Below the pieces are notes generated by a model. It searched no databases. It worked only from the letters and a program-made list of their open reading frames with translations, and was not told where the DNA came from. DNA of 27,716 nucleotides, from IMG/VR virus record IMGVR_UViG_3300032291_001968, positions 1 to 27,716 of that record; one strand, written 5' to 3'. The DNA comes from a virus. The translations under genes were made by a program, and so were the position numbers. Of this stretch, positions 6,019 through 27,716 are shown in pieces (the first letter of the stretch is position 1; each line of letters starts with the position of its first letter).

Positions 6019-6395
6019 ACTTAGACGAACTAGCAACAAAGTGGCGAGAAGCCAAACAACGCGAAGAGGCGGCCCGCAATGACCGGGTTGCCATTGAGCA
6101 AGAGATCATTGAACTGCATCCCGCCAAAGAAGAAGGCGCGGTCACGGTGCACACAGCAGGTGGGAACAACGTCACCCTTACCGGCAAGTTAACTTACAAG
6201 GTTGACATCGAAAAGCTGACAGCTCTCACGGGTAGCTGGCCAGCAGAGATTCGGCCCCTCAAGACTAAGGTTGAGGCCGATGAAACCAAACTAAAAGCAA
6301 TTCGCAACGACGTCCCCAAGCTCTGGGCCGAGATCGCTGCTGCTGTAGAAACCAAACCCGCAAAAACTGGGGTTGCAATTAAGTTTAAAGAATGA
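6015..6395 (+). CDS. Conserved phage protein with coiled-coil ends (126 aa)
   Basis: The 126-residue protein has an N-terminal charged helix (MNLDELATKWREAKQREEAARNDR...), a central beta segment (GAVTVHTAGGNNVTLTGKLTYKVD) and a second helical part (PLKTKVEADETKLKAI). This shape occurs in uncharacterised proteins next to Sak4/SSB recombination cassettes of beta- and gammaproteobacterial phages. It may be an accessory factor of recombination or a nuclease modulator; this is inference from position only. It is coupled to both neighbours by ATGA overlaps. Confidence 0.65.
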   Translation: MNLDELATKWREAKQREEAARNDRVAIEQEIIELHPAKEEGAVTVHTAGGNNVTLTGKLTYKVDIEKLTALTGSWPAEIRPLKTKVEADETKLKAIRNDVPKLWAEIAAAVETKPAKTGVAIKFKE

Positions 6396-6779: not shown

Positions 6780-7523
6780 ATGGCATTCGATCTCTCATCC
6801 ATATCGCGCACAAAGCGCATGCGCGCTCCCAAAATTGTCATTGCCGGCCCAGGCAAGATCGGCAAGACAACCTTTGCTTCTCAGGCGCCAAACGCTGTCG
6901 GCATCTTGACTGAGGACGGCGCTGACGCGGTCGATGCTTCGGCCTTCCCGTTGTGTTCTTCGCTATCCGATGTCTATTCAGCAATAGGAACGCTGCTCAA
7001 AGACAAGCACGACTTTGAGTCTGTCTTTTTGGATTCCCTTGACTGGCTTGAGCCGCTGCTGCACCAGCATGTGTGCGAGGCCAACAAGTGGGCATCGATC
7101 GAGGCGCCTGGTTACGGCAAGGGCTACATCGCTGCAGCTGAAGAGTGGCGCACGTTGCTCTCAGGCCTGGAGGCTCTTCGCGCTCAACGCAACATGGCCA
7201 TCATCTTGATCGCGCACGACAAGATCAAGCGCTTTGAGTCACCTCTGCATGAGGGCTACGACCAATACACATTGAAGCTGCACGACCGCGCTGGCGCTCT
7301 TGTCCAGGAATGGGCAGACGTCATTGGCTGGGCCAACTACCGCGTCGTGACTACGCAGTCCGATGCAGGCTACGGCAACAAAGAAACAAAGGCCCGCACT
7401 ACGGGCGAACGAATCCTTCACGTCGAACCGCACCCCGCTCACATGGGTGGAAACCGTTTCGGTTTGAAGAATATGCCTCTCAGCTGGGAAGCATTCGCTG
7501 CTGCACTTGCAGCCAACAACTAA
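6780..7523 (+). CDS. Sak4-type recombination ATPase
   Basis: The 247-residue protein has a RecA-like P-loop near the N-terminus (GPGKIGKTT, residues 23-31), a Walker B-like strand ending in aspartates (FESVFLDSLDWLEP) and a later MAIILIAHDKIK strand. This is the AAA_24/phage nucleotide-binding family that includes Sak4, which stimulates single-strand annealing in phage recombination. The single-strand-binding protein gene directly downstream supports this. The ATG at 6780 (preceded by AAAGGAAAC) was chosen over the upstream in-frame start, which would overlap the tiny membrane-protein frame. Confidence 0.85.
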   Translation: MAFDLSSISRTKRMRAPKIVIAGPGKIGKTTFASQAPNAVGILTEDGADAVDASAFPLCSSLSDVYSAIGTLLKDKHDFESVFLDSLDWLEPLLHQHVCEANKWASIEAPGYGKGYIAAAEEWRTLLSGLEALRAQRNMAIILIAHDKIKRFESPLHEGYDQYTLKLHDRAGALVQEWADVIGWANYRVVTTQSDAGYGNKETKARTTGERILHVEPHPAHMGGNRFGLKNMPLSWEAFAAALAANN

Positions 7524-7545
7524 GCCATCAACCAGGAGAAACAAC

Positions 7546-8007
7546 ATGGCCTTATTCAACTTCAACGCTGCCACTGTCGAACCAATGCAAGCGCGCTCAT
7601 TTGAGCCGCTGCCAAAAGGCGACTACGAAATGATGATCGTCAAATCAGACGTCAAGCCAACGCAGGCCGGCACTGGTCACTACATCGAGCTTGAGATGCA
7701 CGTCCTGAACGGTGAGCACTCAGGCCGCCGCCACTGGGAGCGCTTGAATGTAGACAACCCAAACAAGACAGCGCAAGACATCGCCAACGCGGCCCTGGCC
7801 TCTCTTTGCTATGCCATCGGCATCGAGGACATGACCGAGACAGAGCAGCTGCATGACCAGCCGTTTGTTGCGCATGTGGAGATCGACAAGAAAGATCCAA
7901 CACGCAACCGCGTCATGGGTTATGCCACCGCAGGCGCGCCAGCACCTAAAGCAGCGCCAGCAGCACGTCCCGCGGCTGCAGCTCCAGCTAAGAAGCCCTG
8001 GGGTTGA
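7546..8007 (+). CDS. DUF669-type single-strand DNA-binding protein
   Basis: The 153-residue product starts MALFNFNAATVEP and continues with LPKGDYEMMIVKSDVKPTQAGTGHYIELEMHVLNGEHSGRRHWERLNV, the hallmark of the DUF669 family of phage proteins thought to bind single-stranded DNA. The C-terminal ~25 residues are an Ala/Pro linker ending KKPWG, which recalls a flexible SSB tail although it is basic instead of acidic. AGGAGAAAC precedes the ATG. The upstream in-frame start at 7507 lies inside the Sak4 gene and was rejected. It works presumably with the Sak4-like ATPase and the nuclease. Confidence 0.85.
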   Translation: MALFNFNAATVEPMQARSFEPLPKGDYEMMIVKSDVKPTQAGTGHYIELEMHVLNGEHSGRRHWERLNVDNPNKTAQDIANAALASLCYAIGIEDMTETEQLHDQPFVAHVEIDKKDPTRNRVMGYATAGAPAPKAAPAARPAAAAPAKKPWG

Positions 8008-8009
8008 TC

Positions 8010-9194
8010 ATGGCGCGAGTGCCCGAGTCACAGCACACAACGGCCACCGCCATCGTGCGGTGGTACGAGAGCAAGCCACAAGAGCACCGCCCTCACATGG
8101 GCGCGTCTCTGATTGGCCACCAATGCAATCGCTACATCTGGCTGACATGGCGCTGGGCGCTCAAGCCTGAATTCTCAGGCCGCATGCTGCGCTTGTTCAG
8201 CACCGGCCAGCGCGAGGAATCTCGCCTGATTGAAGAGCTGCGCGGCATCGGCGCGACTGTGTGGGACCGTGATCCAGACACTGGTGAACAGTTTCGCGTG
8301 TCGGCCTGCAATGGCCACTTCGGTGGCTCACTCGATGGCGTTGGCAAAGGTTTGCCAGAGGCGCCAAAGTCACCTTGCGTGCTCGAGTTCAAGACACACA
8401 ACGACAAGTCATTCAATGACCTGTGCAGCAAGAAAGTGCAAGGCGCAAAGCCTCAGCACTACGACCAGATGACGGTCTACATGGGGCTGATGGAGATCGA
8501 TCGCGCCATGTACATGGGCGTTAACAAAAACAACGACGACGTCTACTGCGAGTGGGTCCATTTTGACAAGGACCACTTTGCAGTGCTGATGGATCGCGCA
8601 CAGCACCTGATTGAGCAGACAGCATCACCAGAGCCACTGAGCCGCGACCCAAGCTACTACATCTGCAAGATGTGCAGCTTTCACAAACACTGTCATGGTG
8701 GCCTGGCTGCCGAGATGAACTGCCGCACATGTTGCCATTCCTCACCCGTTGAAAACGCGGCGTGGCAATGCGTGAAGTTCAGCAAGCAGCTGACTGACAA
8801 AGCGCAGCGCGCAGGCTGTGAGGCTCACCTGATGATCCCCTCATTGATTCCCTACGCGGAAGCAATCGACGGCGGCGAGTCATGGATTGCCTACAAGCAC
8901 CGCGAGACTGGTGCGACTTTTGTGAATGGCCAAGAGACGATTCAAGAGTACGGCCAGAGCTTTTCGAGCAAAGAGCTGCAATTGTGTCCAGGCACATTGA
9001 TCTCTGAAGTGGCCGCGCTCAAGGAACAGTTTCCAGGCAGCACGGTTGCGAGCGGCAGCTTGACCATATTTGACGATCTGGCCACGCACCCTGATGACAT
9101 CCCAGTCAAGAAGGACAACCCGACCAAGGCAGAAGCCAGGCGCAAGACAAGCGCTGCAGTTGAGGCAATGAAACGTTTCGGAGAGACGCGATGA
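8010..9194 (+). CDS. PD-(D/E)XK nuclease with Fe-S cysteine pattern (Cas4/RecB-like)
   Basis: The 394-residue protein shows a PD-(D/E)XK core: Asp109 in GSLDG, and Glu126 and Lys128 in VLEFK, followed by QHYDQMTVYM, the RecB/Cas4-type QxxxY-like motif. Cys39, Cys219, Cys222 and Cys228 (CKMCSFHKHC) match the spacing of the 4Fe-4S site in Cas4/AddB-type nucleases. A further Cys-rich stretch (CRTCCHSS) follows, and the C-terminal ~110 residues form an extra domain. It is probably the exonuclease that produces the single strands used by the Sak4/SSB pair. The ATG at 8010 lies two bases after the SSB stop; a TTG at 8004 is an alternative start. Confidence 0.85.
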   Translation: MARVPESQHTTATAIVRWYESKPQEHRPHMGASLIGHQCNRYIWLTWRWALKPEFSGRMLRLFSTGQREESRLIEELRGIGATVWDRDPDTGEQFRVSACNGHFGGSLDGVGKGLPEAPKSPCVLEFKTHNDKSFNDLCSKKVQGAKPQHYDQMTVYMGLMEIDRAMYMGVNKNNDDVYCEWVHFDKDHFAVLMDRAQHLIEQTASPEPLSRDPSYYICKMCSFHKHCHGGLAAEMNCRTCCHSSPVENAAWQCVKFSKQLTDKAQRAGCEAHLMIPSLIPYAEAIDGGESWIAYKHRETGATFVNGQETIQEYGQSFSSKELQLCPGTLISEVAALKEQFPGSTVASGSLTIFDDLATHPDDIPVKKDNPTKAEARRKTSAAVEAMKRFGETR

Positions 9195-9304
9195 TCAAGA
9201 ATGTCTGCATCTATGTGAGCCTGTGGTGTGCCAGCCTGGTCATCATTGGCTTGATTGCGAAGGCCACTTACTACGTCTTCATGTTGGGGTGGAACGCGCT
9301 GTGA
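9191..9304 (+). CDS. Small single-pass membrane protein (37 aa)
   Basis: The 37-residue frame overlaps the nuclease stop (ATGA) and its own stop overlaps the GTG of the HNH gene (GTGA). It encodes a single hydrophobic helix (CIYVSLWCASLVIIGLIAKATYYVF). No family is recognised. The exact double overlap in a tightly packed operon is the main support. Confidence 0.5.
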   Translation: MIKNVCIYVSLWCASLVIIGLIAKATYYVFMLGWNAL

Positions 9305-9801
9305 CCATCATCGACATGATCAAAGAACGCACGGTTGAAGTGGGCGATTGCTGGGAGTGGCAAGGAGCTTTGCAGGCGTGTGGAACAACACCCACGATTC
9401 GTCACAAGCAGCGGACCATGTCTGTGCGTCGATTGATCATGGAGGTGCAGGGCTATTCGCTTGAAAGCAAAGTTGCCACATGCACATGCGGCAATCACTT
9501 GTGCGTCAATCCTGAGCATGTGGAAATCATCACCAGGAAGAAACTCACAAAGCGAGTCGCATCACAAATCAGGCGCTCAGTCAGCGTGATTCGCATGGCC
9601 AAGATTTCATCAGTGGCGCGTCAACACGCAAAGCTCAATGAGCAGCTGGCTGAAGAGATCAGGCAGGCCGATGGCACACAGCGCGAGATCGCCAAACGCT
9701 TTGGCGTGAGCCAGGCAACAGTCAGCGTGATCAAGCGCGGCAAGACCTGGCGCGACTACAACAACCCTTTCGCTCAGCTTATTGGAGCAAGTAACAAATG
9801 A
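9301..9801 (+). CDS. HNH endonuclease with C-terminal helix-turn-helix
   Basis: The 166-residue product has CWEWQG near residues 17-22 and the HNH motif CTCGNHLCVNPEHV at 61-74 (His66, Asn70, His73, with Cys61, Cys63 and Cys68 as likely structural metal ligands). This is the HNH_3-type phage nuclease layout. The last ~50 residues form a resolvase/sigma-like helix-turn-helix (REIAKRFGVSQATVSVIKRGKTW), probably for DNA targeting as in free-standing homing endonucleases. The GTG start overlaps the previous stop. An upstream in-frame GTG (9223) would cover the membrane-protein gene and was rejected. It may be a mobile nuclease or a recombination accessory. Confidence 0.8.
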   Translation: MTIIDMIKERTVEVGDCWEWQGALQACGTTPTIRHKQRTMSVRRLIMEVQGYSLESKVATCTCGNHLCVNPEHVEIITRKKLTKRVASQIRRSVSVIRMAKISSVARQHAKLNEQLAEEIRQADGTQREIAKRFGVSQATVSVIKRGKTWRDYNNPFAQLIGASNK

Positions 9802-10016
9802 AAAACCAACCAGCGTTCCCAAGACCAGCCTCAGCAGCACATGCGCATGGCATGCACAGTCCTCAAGAAGGCATGACCTTGCGTGACTACTTTGCGGCTA
9901 AGGCGATGCAAGGCATGTTTGCAAGCGGTAATTTGCCACAGTCAGTGCAAGACGATGAGCTTGCTTTTGCCGCCTACAACATGGCAGACGCAATGCTGAA
10001 AGCGAGGGAAGCATGA
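9798..10016 (+). CDS. Small conserved phage protein (72 aa)
   Basis: The 72-residue product has the pattern GMTLRDYFAAKAMQGMFA...AAYNMADAMLKARE, which I recognise from short uncharacterised proteins present in many proteobacterial phages. It is predicted to be helical in its second half. It is coupled by ATGA overlaps to the HNH gene before it and the RuvC-like gene after it. Function unknown. Confidence 0.75.
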   Translation: MKNQPAFPRPASAAHAHGMHSPQEGMTLRDYFAAKAMQGMFASGNLPQSVQDDELAFAAYNMADAMLKAREA

Positions 10017-10489
10017 GCTTCATCATTGGCATCGATCCAGGCGCGTCCGGCGCCGTTGCGATCCTGGAGAAGAGCGGAAAGCTGGTCCATGTCTTTGACA
10101 TGCCATCAGTCGAAGTCATGGCAGGTGGCAAAGCTAAAAAACGAGTGAGCCCTGAGATGCTGGCCGCCGAGCTCAAGCTCTACGCCGACCAGGGCGCCAC
10201 AGCTGTGGTCGAGCAAGTGGGCGCGATGCCTGGCCAGGGCGTGAGCTCCATGTTTGCCTTTGGTGAATCGTTTGGCTTGGCCAAGGGAGTCCTGGCCGGC
10301 CTGGGCATCCCGACCAGCACGGTGACGCCTGGTAAGTGGAAAAAAGCAATGGGAGTCAACGCAGGCAAGGACGGCAGCCGGGCCAAGGCAGCGCAGCTGT
10401 GGCCTACCCAGGCGGGCGAGTTCAAGCGCGTCAAGGACGATGGCCGCGCCGAGGCAGCGCTAATTGCCGAATGGAGCCGTCTTAACTGA
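10013..10489 (+). CDS. RuvC-like Holliday junction resolvase
   Basis: The 158-residue protein keeps the RuvC acidic residues: Asp8 in GIDPG, Glu67 in VVEQV, and a C-terminal DDGRAEAALIAEW (Asp142, Asp143, Glu147). Its length is close to that of bacterial RuvC (about 170). It should cut four-way junctions left by the upstream recombination proteins, or resolve DNA before packaging. It is the last gene of the rightward operon; the integrase that follows has a separate promoter. Confidence 0.9.
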   Translation: MSFIIGIDPGASGAVAILEKSGKLVHVFDMPSVEVMAGGKAKKRVSPEMLAAELKLYADQGATAVVEQVGAMPGQGVSSMFAFGESFGLAKGVLAGLGIPTSTVTPGKWKKAMGVNAGKDGSRAKAAQLWPTQAGEFKRVKDDGRAEAALIAEWSRLN

Positions 10490-10495
10490 CACATG

Positions 10496-10530
10496 TTGAC
10501 ATTTCCGATGATAGTTGAGACAATCTCAAC
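10496..10530 (+). promoter_or_regulatory. Integrase promoter with overlapping palindromic operator
   Basis: A perfect -35 TTGACA (10496-10501) is 17 bp from GACAAT (10519-10524). The perfect dyad GTTGAGA-CAA-TCTCAAC (10514-10530) covers the whole -10. The site resembles the dyad at 4881-4896 in the immunity region. A bound repressor would block transcription of the integrase gene, whose ATG is at 10554. Confidence 0.65.
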
Positions 10531-10553
10531 ATCAAATTAAGGAGTTCCAAAAA

Positions 10554-11510
10554 ATGGCACTTATTCTCAGAGGCGACAACTATTGGATGGACGTCCAGAT
10601 CAATGGCAAGCGTTTGCGTGAATCACTCAAGACCGGCGACAAGAAGCTGGCCCAGCAGCTGCACGACATGCGCAAGGCTGAGCTCTGGCGCGAGGGCGTA
10701 CTGAAGGAGAAGCCCAAGAAGACATTCAAGGAGGCCTGCGCACGCTGGGTGGTCGAGCGCGCACACAAGCGCTCACTGCCTGATGACGAGCTCAAGATCA
10801 AGTTTCTCCTCCCAAAGATAGGCACTGTGCTGCTGTCTGAGCTCACTCGAGACAAGATCGAAAGCGTGCTGCCCAAGGAGGTTGCAGGCGCCACCAGGAA
10901 CCGCTACCGCGCCCTGATTCGGGCCATGCTGCGTGCTGCTGAGCGCGAGTGGGACTGGCTTGACCGCGCCCCCATCCTCAGAACAGAGGCAGAGCCAAAG
11001 CGCCGCGTCGCATATCTGACACGCGAGCAAGCCGAGGTTTTGATCGCTTGTCTCCCGGAAAAGTATCGGATGCCAGTCCGTTTCGCTTTACTCACCGGGT
11101 TGAGAAGATCGAATGTTTTTGGTTTGACCTGGGAGGCTGTAGATCTGGCCAACAGCATGGTGCATGTGGCCGAGGAAGACGCCAAAGCTGGCCAGCGCAT
11201 CCTGGTCCCGCTCAACAAGTCGGCCAAGGCACTTCTGGAATCCTTCCCTGAGCCCCGCAAAGGCCGCGTGTGGGGCGATATGGACCGCGTCTGGGCCAAC
11301 ACCTGGACAGGCGCCTGCAAGCGCGCTGGCGTGCCTGGCTTTAGGTTCCATGATTTGCGCCACACCTGGGCGTCTTGGCATGCGATGGCCGGAACTCCCC
11401 TGTCGGTGCTCCAGGAGCTGGGTGGATGGCATTCACATGAGATGGTTCAGCGCTACGCACACCTTTCGCCGGAGCATTTGGCGAACGCTGCCGAGCGGGT
11501 TAACTTCTGA
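10554..11510 (+). CDS. int: Tyrosine integrase
   Basis: The 318-residue site-specific recombinase has an N-terminal arm-binding-like region (LILRGDNYWMDVQINGKRLRESLKTGDKKLAQ), a SAM-like core-binding domain around residues 55-145, and a catalytic domain with Arg in TGLRRSN (about 183), HDLRH (His266, Arg269), the GGWHSH box (about 290) and the nucleophile Tyr301 in QRYAHL. The ATG at 10554 was chosen because AAGGAG lies upstream and the longer start at 10515 falls inside the operator. It catalyses integration and excision at attP, which lies immediately downstream. No excisionase gene was recognised. Confidence 0.95.
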   Translation: MALILRGDNYWMDVQINGKRLRESLKTGDKKLAQQLHDMRKAELWREGVLKEKPKKTFKEACARWVVERAHKRSLPDDELKIKFLLPKIGTVLLSELTRDKIESVLPKEVAGATRNRYRALIRAMLRAAEREWDWLDRAPILRTEAEPKRRVAYLTREQAEVLIACLPEKYRMPVRFALLTGLRRSNVFGLTWEAVDLANSMVHVAEEDAKAGQRILVPLNKSAKALLESFPEPRKGRVWGDMDRVWANTWTGACKRAGVPGFRFHDLRHTWASWHAMAGTPLSVLQELGGWHSHEMVQRYAHLSPEHLANAAERVNF

Positions 11511-11515
11511 TTTAC

Positions 11516-11532
11516 GGCACAAAAATGTCACA
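11516..11532 (+). repeat. Left copy of 17-bp direct repeat at attP
   Basis: GGCACAAAAATGTCACA occurs here and, identically and in the same orientation, at 11699-11715. The pair brackets the tRNA-like core. A third partial copy, TGTCACA, lies at 11685-11691. Arrangement and position suggest integrase arm-type binding sites. Confidence 0.7.
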
Positions 11533-11579
11533 ACAACCAGAAAATCAAAACTCTAAAACGCTGAGAACCGCATAAACAT

Positions 11580-11628
11580 TGGGGTGGCTGATGGGGCTCG
11601 AACCCACGACAACAGGAATCACAATCTG
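11580..11628 (-). other. attP: attP core: 3' half of tRNA-His(GTG)
   Basis: On the minus strand the 49 bases read from an anticodon loop TTGTGAT through a T-arm (GGGTTCGAGCCCC) and the 3' acceptor strand ATCAGCCACC to CCCA. This is the 3' half of a betaproteobacterial tRNA-His with anticodon GTG. The 5' half is missing and the anticodon stem does not close, so it is not a functional tRNA gene. Its position just after the integrase gene, between direct repeats, identifies it as the phage attachment core. Integration would restore the host tRNA 3' end. Confidence 0.85.
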
Positions 11629-11635
11629 AATATAC

Positions 11636-11661
11636 CAAAAAAAGCCCCCAATTACGGGGGC
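11636..11661 (-). terminator. Terminator at the end of the leftward late operon
   Basis: Read leftward, the stem GCCCCC (11661-11656) / GGGGGC (11649-11644) with a six-base loop is followed by seven T. It lies about 55 bp past the lysozyme stop and inside attP. It probably also keeps late transcripts from running antisense into the integrase gene. Confidence 0.85.
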
Positions 11662-11698
11662 AAAGGTGCAGATGGCAACTGCTCTGTCACAAACGAAT

Positions 11699-11715
11699 GG
11701 CACAAAAATGTCACA
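11699..11715 (+). repeat. Right copy of 17-bp direct repeat at attP
   Basis: This is an exact copy of the repeat at 11516-11532. It ends one base before the stop codon of the lysozyme gene. See the left copy for the interpretation as arm sites. Confidence 0.7.
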
Positions 11716-11716
11716 T

Positions 11717-12244
11717 TTATTCTTCCTCGGTTTCCATCGAACTGAGGAACAAGGCCTTCTCTGCCTTGCGCCGCTTAACTAGGCCCGGCAATTCTTTGCC
11801 GCCGCCGCGAGTCCACTGCATGAAAGCCTCCGCAGCGCCCTCCCAATCCTTGCGCCCGATCTTCATCCGAATAGTGGAACGCTGAAAGTTTCCCAGCCCG
11901 GCATTGAACGCAAAGCTGGTACACGCGTCGAAAGCGCCTTGATTGCCAAGTAGATTGGGAGCAAGTCGTAGAACACCACGCTCAAAACTAGCGACGTCAC
12001 TTGCGAATAGCGCATCGATCTCCTGTTGACTCCAAACACGGCTGTCCTCCGGTCTTAGTGGGTGTTCCTTGCGGATCACGGGGCTGTGGATCTCCTTCAC
12101 CCGCACCATTGGCAGCCTGATCTGCTCCTGGTAGAGCACATGCCCCCAGCCGATCGTCCAGATGTGCGCGGGGCATAGGTATGGCCGGTTTCTGCAGCCC
12201 TCGTACTGGTGCATGAGATCTGCACCGGCCTTGCTCAATTTCAC
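11717..12244 (-). CDS. Endolysin, glycoside hydrolase family 24 lysozyme
   Basis: The 175-residue lysozyme has its catalytic Glu15 in YEGCR, Cys24 where T4 lysozyme has Asp20, and Thr30 in WTIGWGH, i.e. the E-8-(D/C)-5-T arrangement. It continues with the family motif AFDACTSFAFNAGLGNFQRST. It cleaves the murein glycan strands. There is no signal or SAR segment at the N-terminus, so release should depend on the holin-like protein upstream. The GTG start overlaps that gene's stop by four bases. It is the last gene of the late operon; the C-terminus ends in a run of acidic residues. Confidence 0.92.
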   Translation of the reverse strand: MKLSKAGADLMHQYEGCRNRPYLCPAHIWTIGWGHVLYQEQIRLPMVRVKEIHSPVIRKEHPLRPEDSRVWSQQEIDALFASDVASFERGVLRLAPNLLGNQGAFDACTSFAFNAGLGNFQRSTIRMKIGRKDWEGAAEAFMQWTRGGGKELPGLVKRRKAEKALFLSSMETEEE

Positions 12245-21149: not shown

Positions 21150-22441
21150 CACAGACCTCCGTAATTCACCATCAAATAGCCACTGGCGTGACGCTTGACG
21201 AGGTCAGGTCGCACCGCTTCAACTTCTTGGGCAATCACACCGCGTTGCGGCATTCCCATCATTGTGTAGTCATAAATTCCCACGCCAATTGCGTGAGTGC
21301 CGACGCGCTTGATATTCGACTTCAAGCGACGATCGGAGAACATGAACGCGGCAGATCCAAGCTGTGCGCCGGCGCCCAACAGGTTGCCGAATGCAGCGTT
21401 CTGCGCGTTGGCCGCGCCCAGCTGGGCATCGTATGCGGACTGCGTTGCGCCCAAGATGTTGGGAGTCTGTGACTGCTGTGCAGCCACAAACGATGGCATT
21501 TGAGGCATGCTGACCTGCTGGCCAGACAGCAACGCGTTCATCTCGTTCAGAGACATGCCGCGGCGCTGTGCCTGCTCCGCAATCGCTTGCTGACGCAGTT
21601 GGTTCTGCGCATTGGCGTACTGCTGGTTGAGGCCGTATTGCTGGGAAATCGCGTTGTTCTGCGCATTCATGTTTGCCAGATCCAACGCGGAGCCTTGGCC
21701 CAGCGCCTGGTTCTGGAACTGAGCCGCTTGCAGGTTCTGGTTGTAGCCCTGCTGCGCAGTGCCCATCTGCATGTTGTACAGGCGCTGTGCCTCGTTGCCT
21801 GCTGTATCAAGCGCGTTGTAGCGCTCGGCAGACTGCCGTTGAGCCATGTTGTTCAACTCGCGGTCATAGCCCTCAGTGCCTGGGCGGAAACCCATGTTTG
21901 AGAGCTTTGTCTCAAGCTGGCGCTGCTGGTAGTCATGCACCGGCTGCATCTTCTGCATGAGCTGATTTGCAACTGTGTCGCGATAGCTCGAGTCGAACTG
22001 CGGCAAAGGAGAGCCAAAGTTGAAACCAGTCGTCAGGCCAGCTGAGTAGTCCTTCACGCCTGTAGACAAGTTGCCAGGCGCATTTGCGGACGTCATCTGC
22101 GGCAGGTTCTGATAATCAAATGGTTGCGAATACTCGTTTGCCACTCGACCCATAAAACTGTTTGCAAGATCGCTACGGCCTCCTTGGATCTGGATCTGAT
22201 CGTTCAAGGCATCTTGAAGACCTGGCGCAAGGGTGTTGTTCTGAGTCCATTGAGTGACCGCTTGGCCAGACGCAGGATCAGTTACAGACTGGGTTCCCCA
22301 TGACTGCGTACCAAACGGCGTGTTGATAACAGGCCGGTTGGCAAAGTTCTGAATGTTGGTCAACTCTTTAGAAGCTGCCGCCTGAGTATTTGCTGCACCG
22401 AGATAGTCAGGTGTCGCTGGTGCTGACGCTTTTCCGCCCAT
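21149..22441 (-). CDS. Virion protein with C-terminal S74-like chaperone domain (430 aa)
   Basis: Residues 1-350 are Gln/Asn/Ala-rich and mostly helical (e.g. AQNNAISQQYGLNQQYANAQNQLRQQ), and look like an internal or tail-associated rod. Residues from about 370 form a short S74/endosialidase-type intramolecular chaperone: SDRRLKSNIKRVGTHAIGVGIYDY, then GVIAQEVEAVRPDLVKRHASGYLMVNY. In this family the Ser of SDxRLK is the self-cleavage site and the domain drives trimerisation. The protein is therefore probably trimeric. AAGGAGAAAGAAC precedes the ATG, and the gene overlaps the acetyltransferase-like gene by 35 bp. Confidence 0.75.
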   Translation of the reverse strand: MGGKASAPATPDYLGAANTQAAASKELTNIQNFANRPVINTPFGTQSWGTQSVTDPASGQAVTQWTQNNTLAPGLQDALNDQIQIQGGRSDLANSFMGRVANEYSQPFDYQNLPQMTSANAPGNLSTGVKDYSAGLTTGFNFGSPLPQFDSSYRDTVANQLMQKMQPVHDYQQRQLETKLSNMGFRPGTEGYDRELNNMAQRQSAERYNALDTAGNEAQRLYNMQMGTAQQGYNQNLQAAQFQNQALGQGSALDLANMNAQNNAISQQYGLNQQYANAQNQLRQQAIAEQAQRRGMSLNEMNALLSGQQVSMPQMPSFVAAQQSQTPNILGATQSAYDAQLGAANAQNAAFGNLLGAGAQLGSAAFMFSDRRLKSNIKRVGTHAIGVGIYDYTMMGMPQRGVIAQEVEAVRPDLVKRHASGYLMVNYGGL

Positions 22442-22847
22442 GTTCTTTCTCCTTGATCCATCGGCAGTCGTCTGCCTTCATTTCAAACATCACACAATCA
22501 ACGGTCTCGGCAATCTGCCGAAATCCTAGCTTGCGATTCATCCTTACAGCATCTTCCAAGTGCTTTGGTGTGAGGCCGTAGACCGCTTCCTTGCCGCATG
22601 TAATCAGCGGGTATTCGAAAGCCGCACGCCAAAGCTCACGGGTCAAACTGTGCGGAGTGTCAAATGCAACGTGCATCCAGCACCCCTTTTCTGTCCACGC
22701 GTTGTACGCAACAGCTGCCCCAATTGTGCCGTCATCACGCATCGCTGCTATCGCTCGCAGGTCACTACTCCAAGGCAGGTTTGTCTTCCTGTGCATCCAT
22801 TCCCAGATGACAGGACGCTCTCCTGGTTTGTCAGTAGTGAGCTGCAT
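22407..22847 (-). CDS. GNAT-like acetyltransferase protein (146 aa)
   Basis: The 146-residue protein has the GNAT layout: a strand with GTIGAAVAYNAWTEKGCWMHVAFD, a helix with a Leu/Arg start in place of the usual Q/RxxGxG/A loop, then CGKEAVYGLTPKHLEDAVRMNRKLGFRQIAETVDCVMFEM, where AVRMNRKLGF is the typical C-terminal GNAT 'N..LGF' motif. The acetyl-CoA loop is degenerate, so it may be a non-catalytic fold. T7-like podoviruses also encode a GNAT-like virion protein among their internal proteins, which fits this position. Confidence 0.7.
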   Translation of the reverse strand: MQLTTDKPGERPVIWEWMHRKTNLPWSSDLRAIAAMRDDGTIGAAVAYNAWTEKGCWMHVAFDTPHSLTRELWRAAFEYPLITCGKEAVYGLTPKHLEDAVRMNRKLGFRQIAETVDCVMFEMKADDCRWIKEKEHGRKSVSTSDT

Positions 22848-27079: not shown

Positions 27080-27716
27080 TTAGTTTTGGATACGACCTTG
27101 GAACTGAGCACCAGAGGTGGTCAGGTTGCCAGCCCAAGCCAAGATCTGAACTTCAGCGTCCTGGTTGATGGCGTAGCGGCGGTTAGGCGACAAAGGAACC
27201 ATGTTGCGGTCCTTGTGAGGGCGCCATTTGATGTACTTGCTGTTGAGCATGAAGCCGGTGTTGGCAGGGCAATAGCCGCCGATACCGCCGTCCAAAACAA
27301 CGTCAGCATCCATGAACTTCAATGTGGGGAAGCCCAAATTGCCAGTCTCAGGAGATGTGAAACGCTGCTGGGCTTGCAAGCTGCCCATGTAGTAAGTCCA
27401 ATAGTTGTTGTCCAACACGATCAAGTCGGGACGGTCAGTGCCGCGAACCAAAGAAGACCACAAAGAATTCATTGCGGCTTGGATGGTGGTGGCGCTGGGA
27501 GTCACGCTTTGAGCGCTGAAGTCATACAACTTGGAGCGCCAGAAAGTCCAGGTAGCGCGGTTGATGCCACCGTAAGTGCCAGTTGTGGGGTCAGCAGGCA
27601 CAGCGGCGTTCAAGCCAGTGACTTCCTTACCGCCAGAGCCAGTGCCGTCTGAGTAGATGGACTGGGCCAACTGGTTGACCATTGTGGATTCAGCCACGTT
27701 CAAACGAGCTTCGAGC
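27080..27716 (-). CDS. Major coat protein, 3' part (cut by window edge)
   Basis: The open frame runs off the right edge; about 211 C-terminal residues are visible. They include TYGGINRATWTFWRSKLYDFSAQSVTPSATTIQAAMNSLWSSLVRGTDRPDLIVLDNNYWTYYMGSLQAQQRFTSPE, then LGFPTLKFMDADVVLDGGIGG and KDRNMVPLSPNRRYAINQDAEVQILAWAGNLTTSGAQFQGRIQN. This is the end of a phage major capsid protein of the HK97 fold as found in podoviruses: a late beta strand with 'DADVVLDGG', and the final 'AQFQGRI' motif. The in-frame TTG at 27703 is not the start, since coding continues upstream (LEARLNVAES). It is the first gene in the window of the leftward structural operon. Confidence 0.85.
   Translation of the reverse strand, partial: LEARLNVAESTMVNQLAQSIYSDGTGSGGKEVTGLNAAVPADPTTGTYGGINRATWTFWRSKLYDFSAQSVTPSATTIQAAMNSLWSSLVRGTDRPDLIVLDNNYWTYYMGSLQAQQRFTSPETGNLGFPTLKFMDADVVLDGGIGGYCPANTGFMLNSKYIKWRPHKDRNMVPLSPNRRYAINQDAEVQILAWAGNLTTSGAQFQGRIQN

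Follow-up and report, generated by a model that had tools for sequence, protein, structure and literature searches.

In the tRNA-dependent lysogeny described for actinophages, the attachment core measures about 8–17 bp and cannot restore the host tRNA, and lysogeny requires a phage-encoded tRNA of matching isotype (PMC10865867). The phages that carry a phage tRNA in Table 2 of that paper are those listed there as not restoring the gene. Both modes occur among near relatives: sister phages of the gene-restoring mycobacteriophages Boilgate and Ximenita, at 78% in Int, use the tRNA-dependent mode (PMC10865867). Guerrero-Bustamante and Hatfull stated that it is not clear how tRNA-dependent and tRNA-restoring lysogeny are related in evolution, and that the spread of the former beyond actinophages needs study (PMC10865867). 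Among non-actinobacterial cases, elements of Sinorhizobium are reported in which an interrupted tRNA is replaced by an element-borne isoacceptor, a system that we liken to the present one by its description (PMC11476347), and Mesorhizobium-phage-like prophages are another mention in print (PMC12429752).

Here we analysed a 27,716-bp IMG/VR virus record (the whole stretch is referred to as the window), with a follow-up of an earlier note on its attachment site. Taken together, the results make it very probable that this site is the tRNA-His attP of a lambda/P22-type tyrosine integrase with a core that restores the target gene, that some related phages carry a complete tRNA-His at this place, and that the window most likely came to lack a tRNA through replacement by a stretch like that of a related phage, L008.

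The attachment site and its tRNA-His target

Profile searches of the window identified repressor-like, Sak4-like, Cas4-domain exonuclease, Holliday-junction resolvase, tyrosine integrase, lysozyme, tail, virion and major-head genes. The integrase gene (int; 10554–11510, plus strand, the start being taken as the ATG at 10554 in a frame open from 10515) matched Pfam Phage_integrase (3.8e-24) and PHROG integrase (2.1e-64), and its product is about 40% identical to the integrases of P22-like phages, with Salmonella phage P22/ST64T as the nearest annotated isolates. A consensus scan alone placed a promoter-like site, TTGACA-17-GACAAT, ahead of int (10496–10524, plus strand). The attP site fills the gap between the int stop at 11510 and the phage lysozyme gene on the minus strand (11717–12244; Pfam Phage_lysozyme 4.8e-34, PHROG endolysin), which forms its far-side phage flank. 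An intrinsic-terminator-like hairpin with a T run, found by a scan where the leftward lysis genes end (11637–11661, minus strand) and retained in the five nearest relatives, would stop the leftward lysis transcript just ahead of the core. Searching bases 1–25000 of the window against phage DNA records gave no match. The window is itself a fragment: its major-head gene (27080–27715) is cut off on the right, and related contigs include several of 34–38 kb. A further gene among the structural genes, 22407–22847, matched the PHROG annotation 'acyl-CoA N-acyltransferase', and the same annotation stands next to a homologous tail/amidase gene in the Myxococcus phages Mx8 and Mx9.

The attP core is the 3' half of a tRNA-His(GTG), running from the anticodon loop (11618–11624) to CCA at 11580–11626 on the minus strand. 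The earlier note had placed this half directly behind the integrase gene; it does adjoin int, with the correction that it lies on the opposite strand. The 49-bp core given there likewise needs a distinction, since the tRNA half itself measures 47 bp, and 49 bp (11578–11626) are invariant across the six nearest phages. Neither ARAGORN nor Rfam detected a complete tRNA in the window. The predicted host target was borne out: an exact copy of a 46-bp core was present in 31 of the 399 genomes sampled from Burkholderiales, the order of Advenella mandrilli (the genome of L003), and the host sequence continues as a complete tRNA-His at the core matches inspected. Both flanks of the site consist of phage genes that align to relatives over several kilobases, in agreement with the claim that the sequenced molecule is not integrated. 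Related integrases at other tRNA genes, which the earlier note had named as evidence against its reading, were found in part: relatives at 66–70% identity have tRNA-Cys, -Ser or -Asn as their target. The integrase family is thus not restricted to tRNA-His, although tRNA-His is the target of all of the nearest relatives. For His, Cys, Asn and Ser targets alike, the tRNA homology of attP ends at the anticodon loop. Taken alone, the attP of the window is unexceptional and of a well-known kind.

The core is flanked by two exact copies of the 17-bp repeat GGCACAAAAATGTCACA, at 11516–11532 and 11699–11715, just as the earlier note had described. With up to three mismatches allowed, these two copies are the only ones in the whole window, and shuffled sequences averaged 0.16. 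Internally the repeat consists of two tandem copies of a motif of about 7 bp, G[G/T]CACA, spaced about 10 bp apart. The left arm (11516–11532, plus strand) thus carries a pair of arm-type motifs, identified from the exact repeat and from the motif pairs that flank the core in related phages, and the right arm (11685–11715, plus strand) carries three, at 11685, 11698 and 11709, identified from sequence and conserved spacing; all are putative integrase binding sites. The third, partial TGTCACA claimed earlier is present at 11685–11691; its count is unremarkable (5 in the window vs. 5.4 expected), but of the five nearest relatives four retain it. Among viral contigs the 17-bp repeat was found in 15 stretches, four of which (L031, L032, L038 and L044) belong to this integrase family; by a rough size estimate, the others look like chance matches.

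Motif pairs on both sides of the core, with spacing conserved across related loci, support the proposal of candidate arm sites. As scripted, the distance from the anticodon loop to the right pair is +81 to +84 bp in 38 of 44 related loci, a count that rises to 42 of 44 after re-measuring L160, L162, L163 and L190 on their true core; the exceptions are L020, at +73, and L008, which has no intact pair. This spacing holds across tRNA-His, -Cys, -Asn and -Ser targets. The left pairs fall at -77/-79 in short-core loci and one Cys row, at -100 to -102 in loci with His or Cys 3' halves, and at -121 in Asn and Ser loci; where the pattern found a pair, these classes differ by steps near two helical turns. 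Between the left arm and the core, perfect matches to the IHF-like consensus WATCAANNNNTTR were present in 15 of 37 loci, compared with 0.11 expected from shuffles; with one mismatch allowed, the number rose to 29 of 37 (1.76 expected). The arm pattern was composed after the window had been seen, and the loci are related, so that the arm and IHF counts are not independent. The window has one IHF-like site with a single mismatch at -74 and none at -53, where its relatives have one. The window is thus a poor example for IHF, and the description of its attP as complete is somewhat generous.

Attachment devices among the integrase relatives

Relatives of the integrase were drawn from viral contigs, all of them from metagenomes. 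The resulting tree comprised 54 rows after removal of L030 (a fragment), L002/L003 and L191–L232 (47–48% identity or less), with nine re-fetched contigs (L155–L157, L166, L169–L172 and L179) counted once. Only the 3' half of tRNA-His was present in three rows (the window, L008 and L015), whereas 21 rows (L009–L014, L024, L025, L027, L028, L158–L165, L167, L168 and L190) combined a complete tRNA-His with a short core, in which the shared stretch corresponds approximately to the anticodon arm, for example ACCAGAATCACAA. A mixed state, with both a complete tRNA-His and a restoring core, was found in four rows, L004–L007, which are 98–99% relatives of the window. The 3' half of tRNA-Cys, -Ser or -Asn was found in 19 rows, and seven rows had no recognised 3' half. 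The short core thus coincides with a complete tRNA-His in 21 of 21 cases, whereas no complete tRNA was found beside int in any of the 19 Cys, Ser and Asn rows, all of which keep the 3' half. L015, which has the 3' half and no complete tRNA, is nested inside the complete-tRNA clade (98/90 support), and the history is therefore not a simple one-way series; its placement in the tree is possibly the mark of a second switch between the two lysogeny modes.

Two further observations were made on attP architecture. In L029 (about 6035–6086), L178, L180, L182 and L183 (5 of 54 rows), attP contains an apparent 5' half of a class II tRNA (GGAGAGGTGGCCGAG...), and the arm motifs of this clade are in the opposite orientation; the printed stretch of L178 ends inside the 5' half. 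A search of 60 genomes with up to two mismatches allowed gave no match to this 5' half. If real, it would mean that the restored tRNA needs a phage promoter. L005 has int, tRNA and attP in common with L004, L006 and L007, and its lysis-side sequence is unrelated to that of the window, so that attP also marks a module border in that phage.

In the 25 of 54 rows that have it, the complete tRNA-His always occupies the interval from the int stop to the left arm and runs antisense to int; in L013, L024, L025 and L159–L162 it lies behind a small open frame. In all 25 rows it is a single tRNA of the target isotype in the orientation of the host tRNA. Its eight distinct sequences have 100% paired stems, with four pairs changed on both sides, which argues that the carried genes have been kept as tRNAs; separate captures from hosts could also have produced such paired changes. 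The carried anticodon stem is CTGGA/TCCAG (U28-A42) in 25 of 25 rows, and the other stems vary. Of 120 host genomes, 89 had a match to a tRNA-His pattern; counted by eye in these 89, pair 28-42 was C-G in 59, A-U in 23, U-A in 7 and another pair in 1, one genome having two types. This distribution suggested a reason for carrying the gene, in that a 3' half exactly fits one stem type and a complete tRNA fits any host. The complete tRNA of L004, L006 and L007 was also considered as the attL of an integrated prophage and rejected, because phage DNA homologous to the window continues beyond it; L005 diverges from the window on the far side of the tRNA.

The restoring capacity of these sites was evaluated in silico by joining the phage half by script to host 5' halves and reading the product with ARAGORN. 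At the int-side junction, the core of the window gave tRNA-His in 30 of 30 hosts chosen by exact core and in 11 of 12 hosts of a second set, ten with other anticodon stems, for which the uncut-site control gave tRNA-His in 12 of 12. The junction opposite the int side gave a tRNA in 0 of 30 hosts. The site of the window can therefore restore its target gene in silico. In contrast, the short-core rows gave no tRNA at the junction in any of the 30 hosts (17 of 17 rows tried) or of the 12 hosts (11 of 11 rows tried). The 30-host test covered 24 of the 28 tRNA-His rows, with L160, L162, L163 and L190 left out, and the 12-host test covered 15 of the 28. The idea that a 3' half with the wrong stem fails to restore the tRNA was unsupported, as ARAGORN accepted one stem mismatch.

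Genome searches were performed for lysogens. The earlier note had advised looking in Burkholderiales genomes for prophages with this integrase bordering tRNA-His and a duplicated core; the core was found in tRNA-His, and duplicated in two genomes, but no prophage with this integrase was found in the genomes searched. These genomes yielded no lysogen, attL or attR of the window integrase, whose best match was 49% in the 399 genomes of the order, 47% in a set of 43 genomes and 45% in a further genome search. Searches at E <= 1e-90 of 74 genomes with the integrase and of 369 genomes with the integrase query L161 returned empty output, which by itself shows nothing. In the two genomes with a duplication, G018 and G063, the 46-bp core occurs twice on one strand, 29–32 kb apart, with the full tRNA-His at one end. 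They were rejected as lysogens of the window phage because the four fetched end stretches of 12–12.5 kb contain no close integrase, the best matches in these ends (the middles not included) being 54 residues at 37% and 40 residues at 40%. We read both genomes as carrying other elements at the same tRNA-His, which, with the core duplicated, makes this gene a used attachment site in Burkholderiales. Moreover, a 34-bp tRNA-His core was found in 77 viral stretches (L079–L150, L008, L031, L032, L038 and L044), of which five carry a window-type integrase (92–99%) and the rest, within the stretches searched, gave no match or at most 31%. Since most of them are without this integrase, tRNA-His is a shared hot spot and not a mark of the family. 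The anticodon loop of tRNA-His appears as a hot spot common to unrelated elements.

A mosaic tract beside the integrase gene

The window is about 92–100% identical to L004–L007 over most of 7301–11350, and again to L004, L006 and L007 from 11651, with some lower stretches in both parts, whereas its identity to L008 is mostly 65–85% outside int. Within 11351–11650 this order flips, with 93 and 90% to L008 and 83–89% to L004–L007. The pattern of informative sites delimits a recombinant L008-like tract at 11343–11577, which is without the complete tRNA-His of L004–L007. Inside this tract 25 of 30 informative sites are L008-like, compared with 13 of 682 elsewhere, a clustering reached by none of 10,000 label shuffles; 8 of the 25 sites are consecutive and may represent one event. 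The left border falls in the int gene (11316–11342), in about 26 bp of shared sequence, and the right border falls inside the 49-bp core common to all six phages.

In L004–L007 the complete tRNA lies inside the tract region, directly after the int stop. The simplest reading of this alignment is that a tRNA-bearing segment was replaced by a tRNA-less one in the lineage of the window. The reverse direction, a tRNA gain in the ancestor of L004–L007, may apply instead, because L008 is likewise without a tRNA and the tree is weak within the group. An origin of the window arrangement through excision, by the integrase, of the DNA from the carried tRNA to the core was rejected: the left arm would have gone with it, and the window has this arm. 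Either way, the tRNA-bearing arm appears to behave as a swappable cassette between two lysogeny modes.

Proposed mechanism and comparison with known systems

We propose that the integrase would bind the GKCACA motifs on both sides as arm sites and that IHF would bend the DNA between arm and core. The integrase is predicted to cut the host tRNA-His gene in the anticodon loop, where the strands would be exchanged. The host 5' half with its promoter would then be joined to the phage 3' half on the int side, restoring the tRNA, and the host 3' half would remain at the other prophage end. In the short-core relatives, an integrase of the same type would act on a core unable to restore the tRNA, with a complete tRNA-His carried behind int. 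Given the strand and side on which that gene lies, transcription from the promoter of the interrupted host tRNA may run past the broken 5' half and reach it about 100 bp downstream, which predicts that the carried tRNA is expressed only after integration. In the window, about 235–310 bp between the int 3' end and the core would have been exchanged for the L008-like stretch.

The carried tRNA might instead serve lytic growth or evasion of anticodon nucleases, its place on the attP side being a capture site. PMC10865867 and PMC13015707 consider roles of this kind for phage tRNAs, but this explanation appears unlikely here, since the gene is a single tRNA of the target isotype placed between int and attP in host orientation in every case (25/25), accompanies a short core in 21 of 21 rows, and was not found beside int in any of the 19 Cys, Ser and Asn rows, each with a 3' half. 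For the window, a chimeric metagenome assembly of an L004-like phage and a short L008-like piece would also produce a mosaic. The tract is indeed short and one of its borders lies in an identical 49-bp stretch, whereas the left border shares only about 26 bp and L008 is not the donor (93/90%), which makes such an artefact quite unlikely. Apart from the L008-type match, no further record with the exact left arm was found, an observation that is neutral in this respect.

The 3' half could also be a relic of a tRNA-dependent ancestor that lost its tRNA, leaving a phage that is crippled for integration or kills its lysogens, as reported for Rumpelstiltskin and Daredevil. Tying in with this, natural tRNA-less members of tRNA-dependent clusters are described as making clear plaques (PMC10865867), and the window is without a tRNA, lost or never possessed, and without the IHF-like site at -53. 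Nevertheless, a relic seems very unlikely: the half is complete over its 47 bp and gives a restored tRNA in silico, and the 49 bp are invariant in six phages. Compared with these alternatives, the reading that we prefer remains a gene-restoring tRNA-His attP in a phage that most likely acquired an L008-like arm. We further speculate, as a tentative proposal with somewhat less than even chances as a whole, that restoring and tRNA-dependent lysogeny interconvert in one lineage via the mixed state (L004–L007), by homologous swap of a cassette of about 300 bp comprising the int end and the left arm, with the window as a natural swap. The complete tRNA would free the phage from matching the host stem at pair 28-42 and thereby widen the range of lysogenisable hosts, and the U28-A42 stem may bar the carried gene from use as an internal attB.

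Among described systems, the window resembles the attP of Boilgate and Ximenita, phages whose target tRNA is restored at attL; that attP likewise has a 3' tRNA half as its core (43–45 bp there), a lambda-like tyrosine integrase and arm sites (PMC10865867). The window differs from them in its integrase lineage, in belonging to probable Burkholderiales phages, in its tRNA-His target and in the convergent arrangement of int and tRNA. By integrase alone, its nearest likeness is the integrase module of Salmonella phage P22/ST64T (about 40%). In contrast, the short-core relatives appear to share their anatomy, a short anticodon-arm core with a complete cognate tRNA, with Fionnbharth, Cluster L and Gaia as described in PMC10865867; in the relatives the tRNA directly adjoins attP, unlike in those phages. 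The window has neither the short core nor the complete tRNA and belongs with the restoring type. The mixed state of L004–L007, a complete tRNA together with a restoring core, is absent from Table 2 of PMC10865867. The present comparison adds a family of phages, probably from Burkholderiales, whose closely related integrases are found with restoring, tRNA-dependent-type and mixed states. Besides the first two states, the family includes four separate metagenome records of the mixed state and one recombinant without the tRNA, which it either lost or never acquired. Because the integrases of the mixed-state phages and the window are 98–99% similar, almost a single integrase would suffice to test in which order the steps occurred and what the phage gains from the tRNA.
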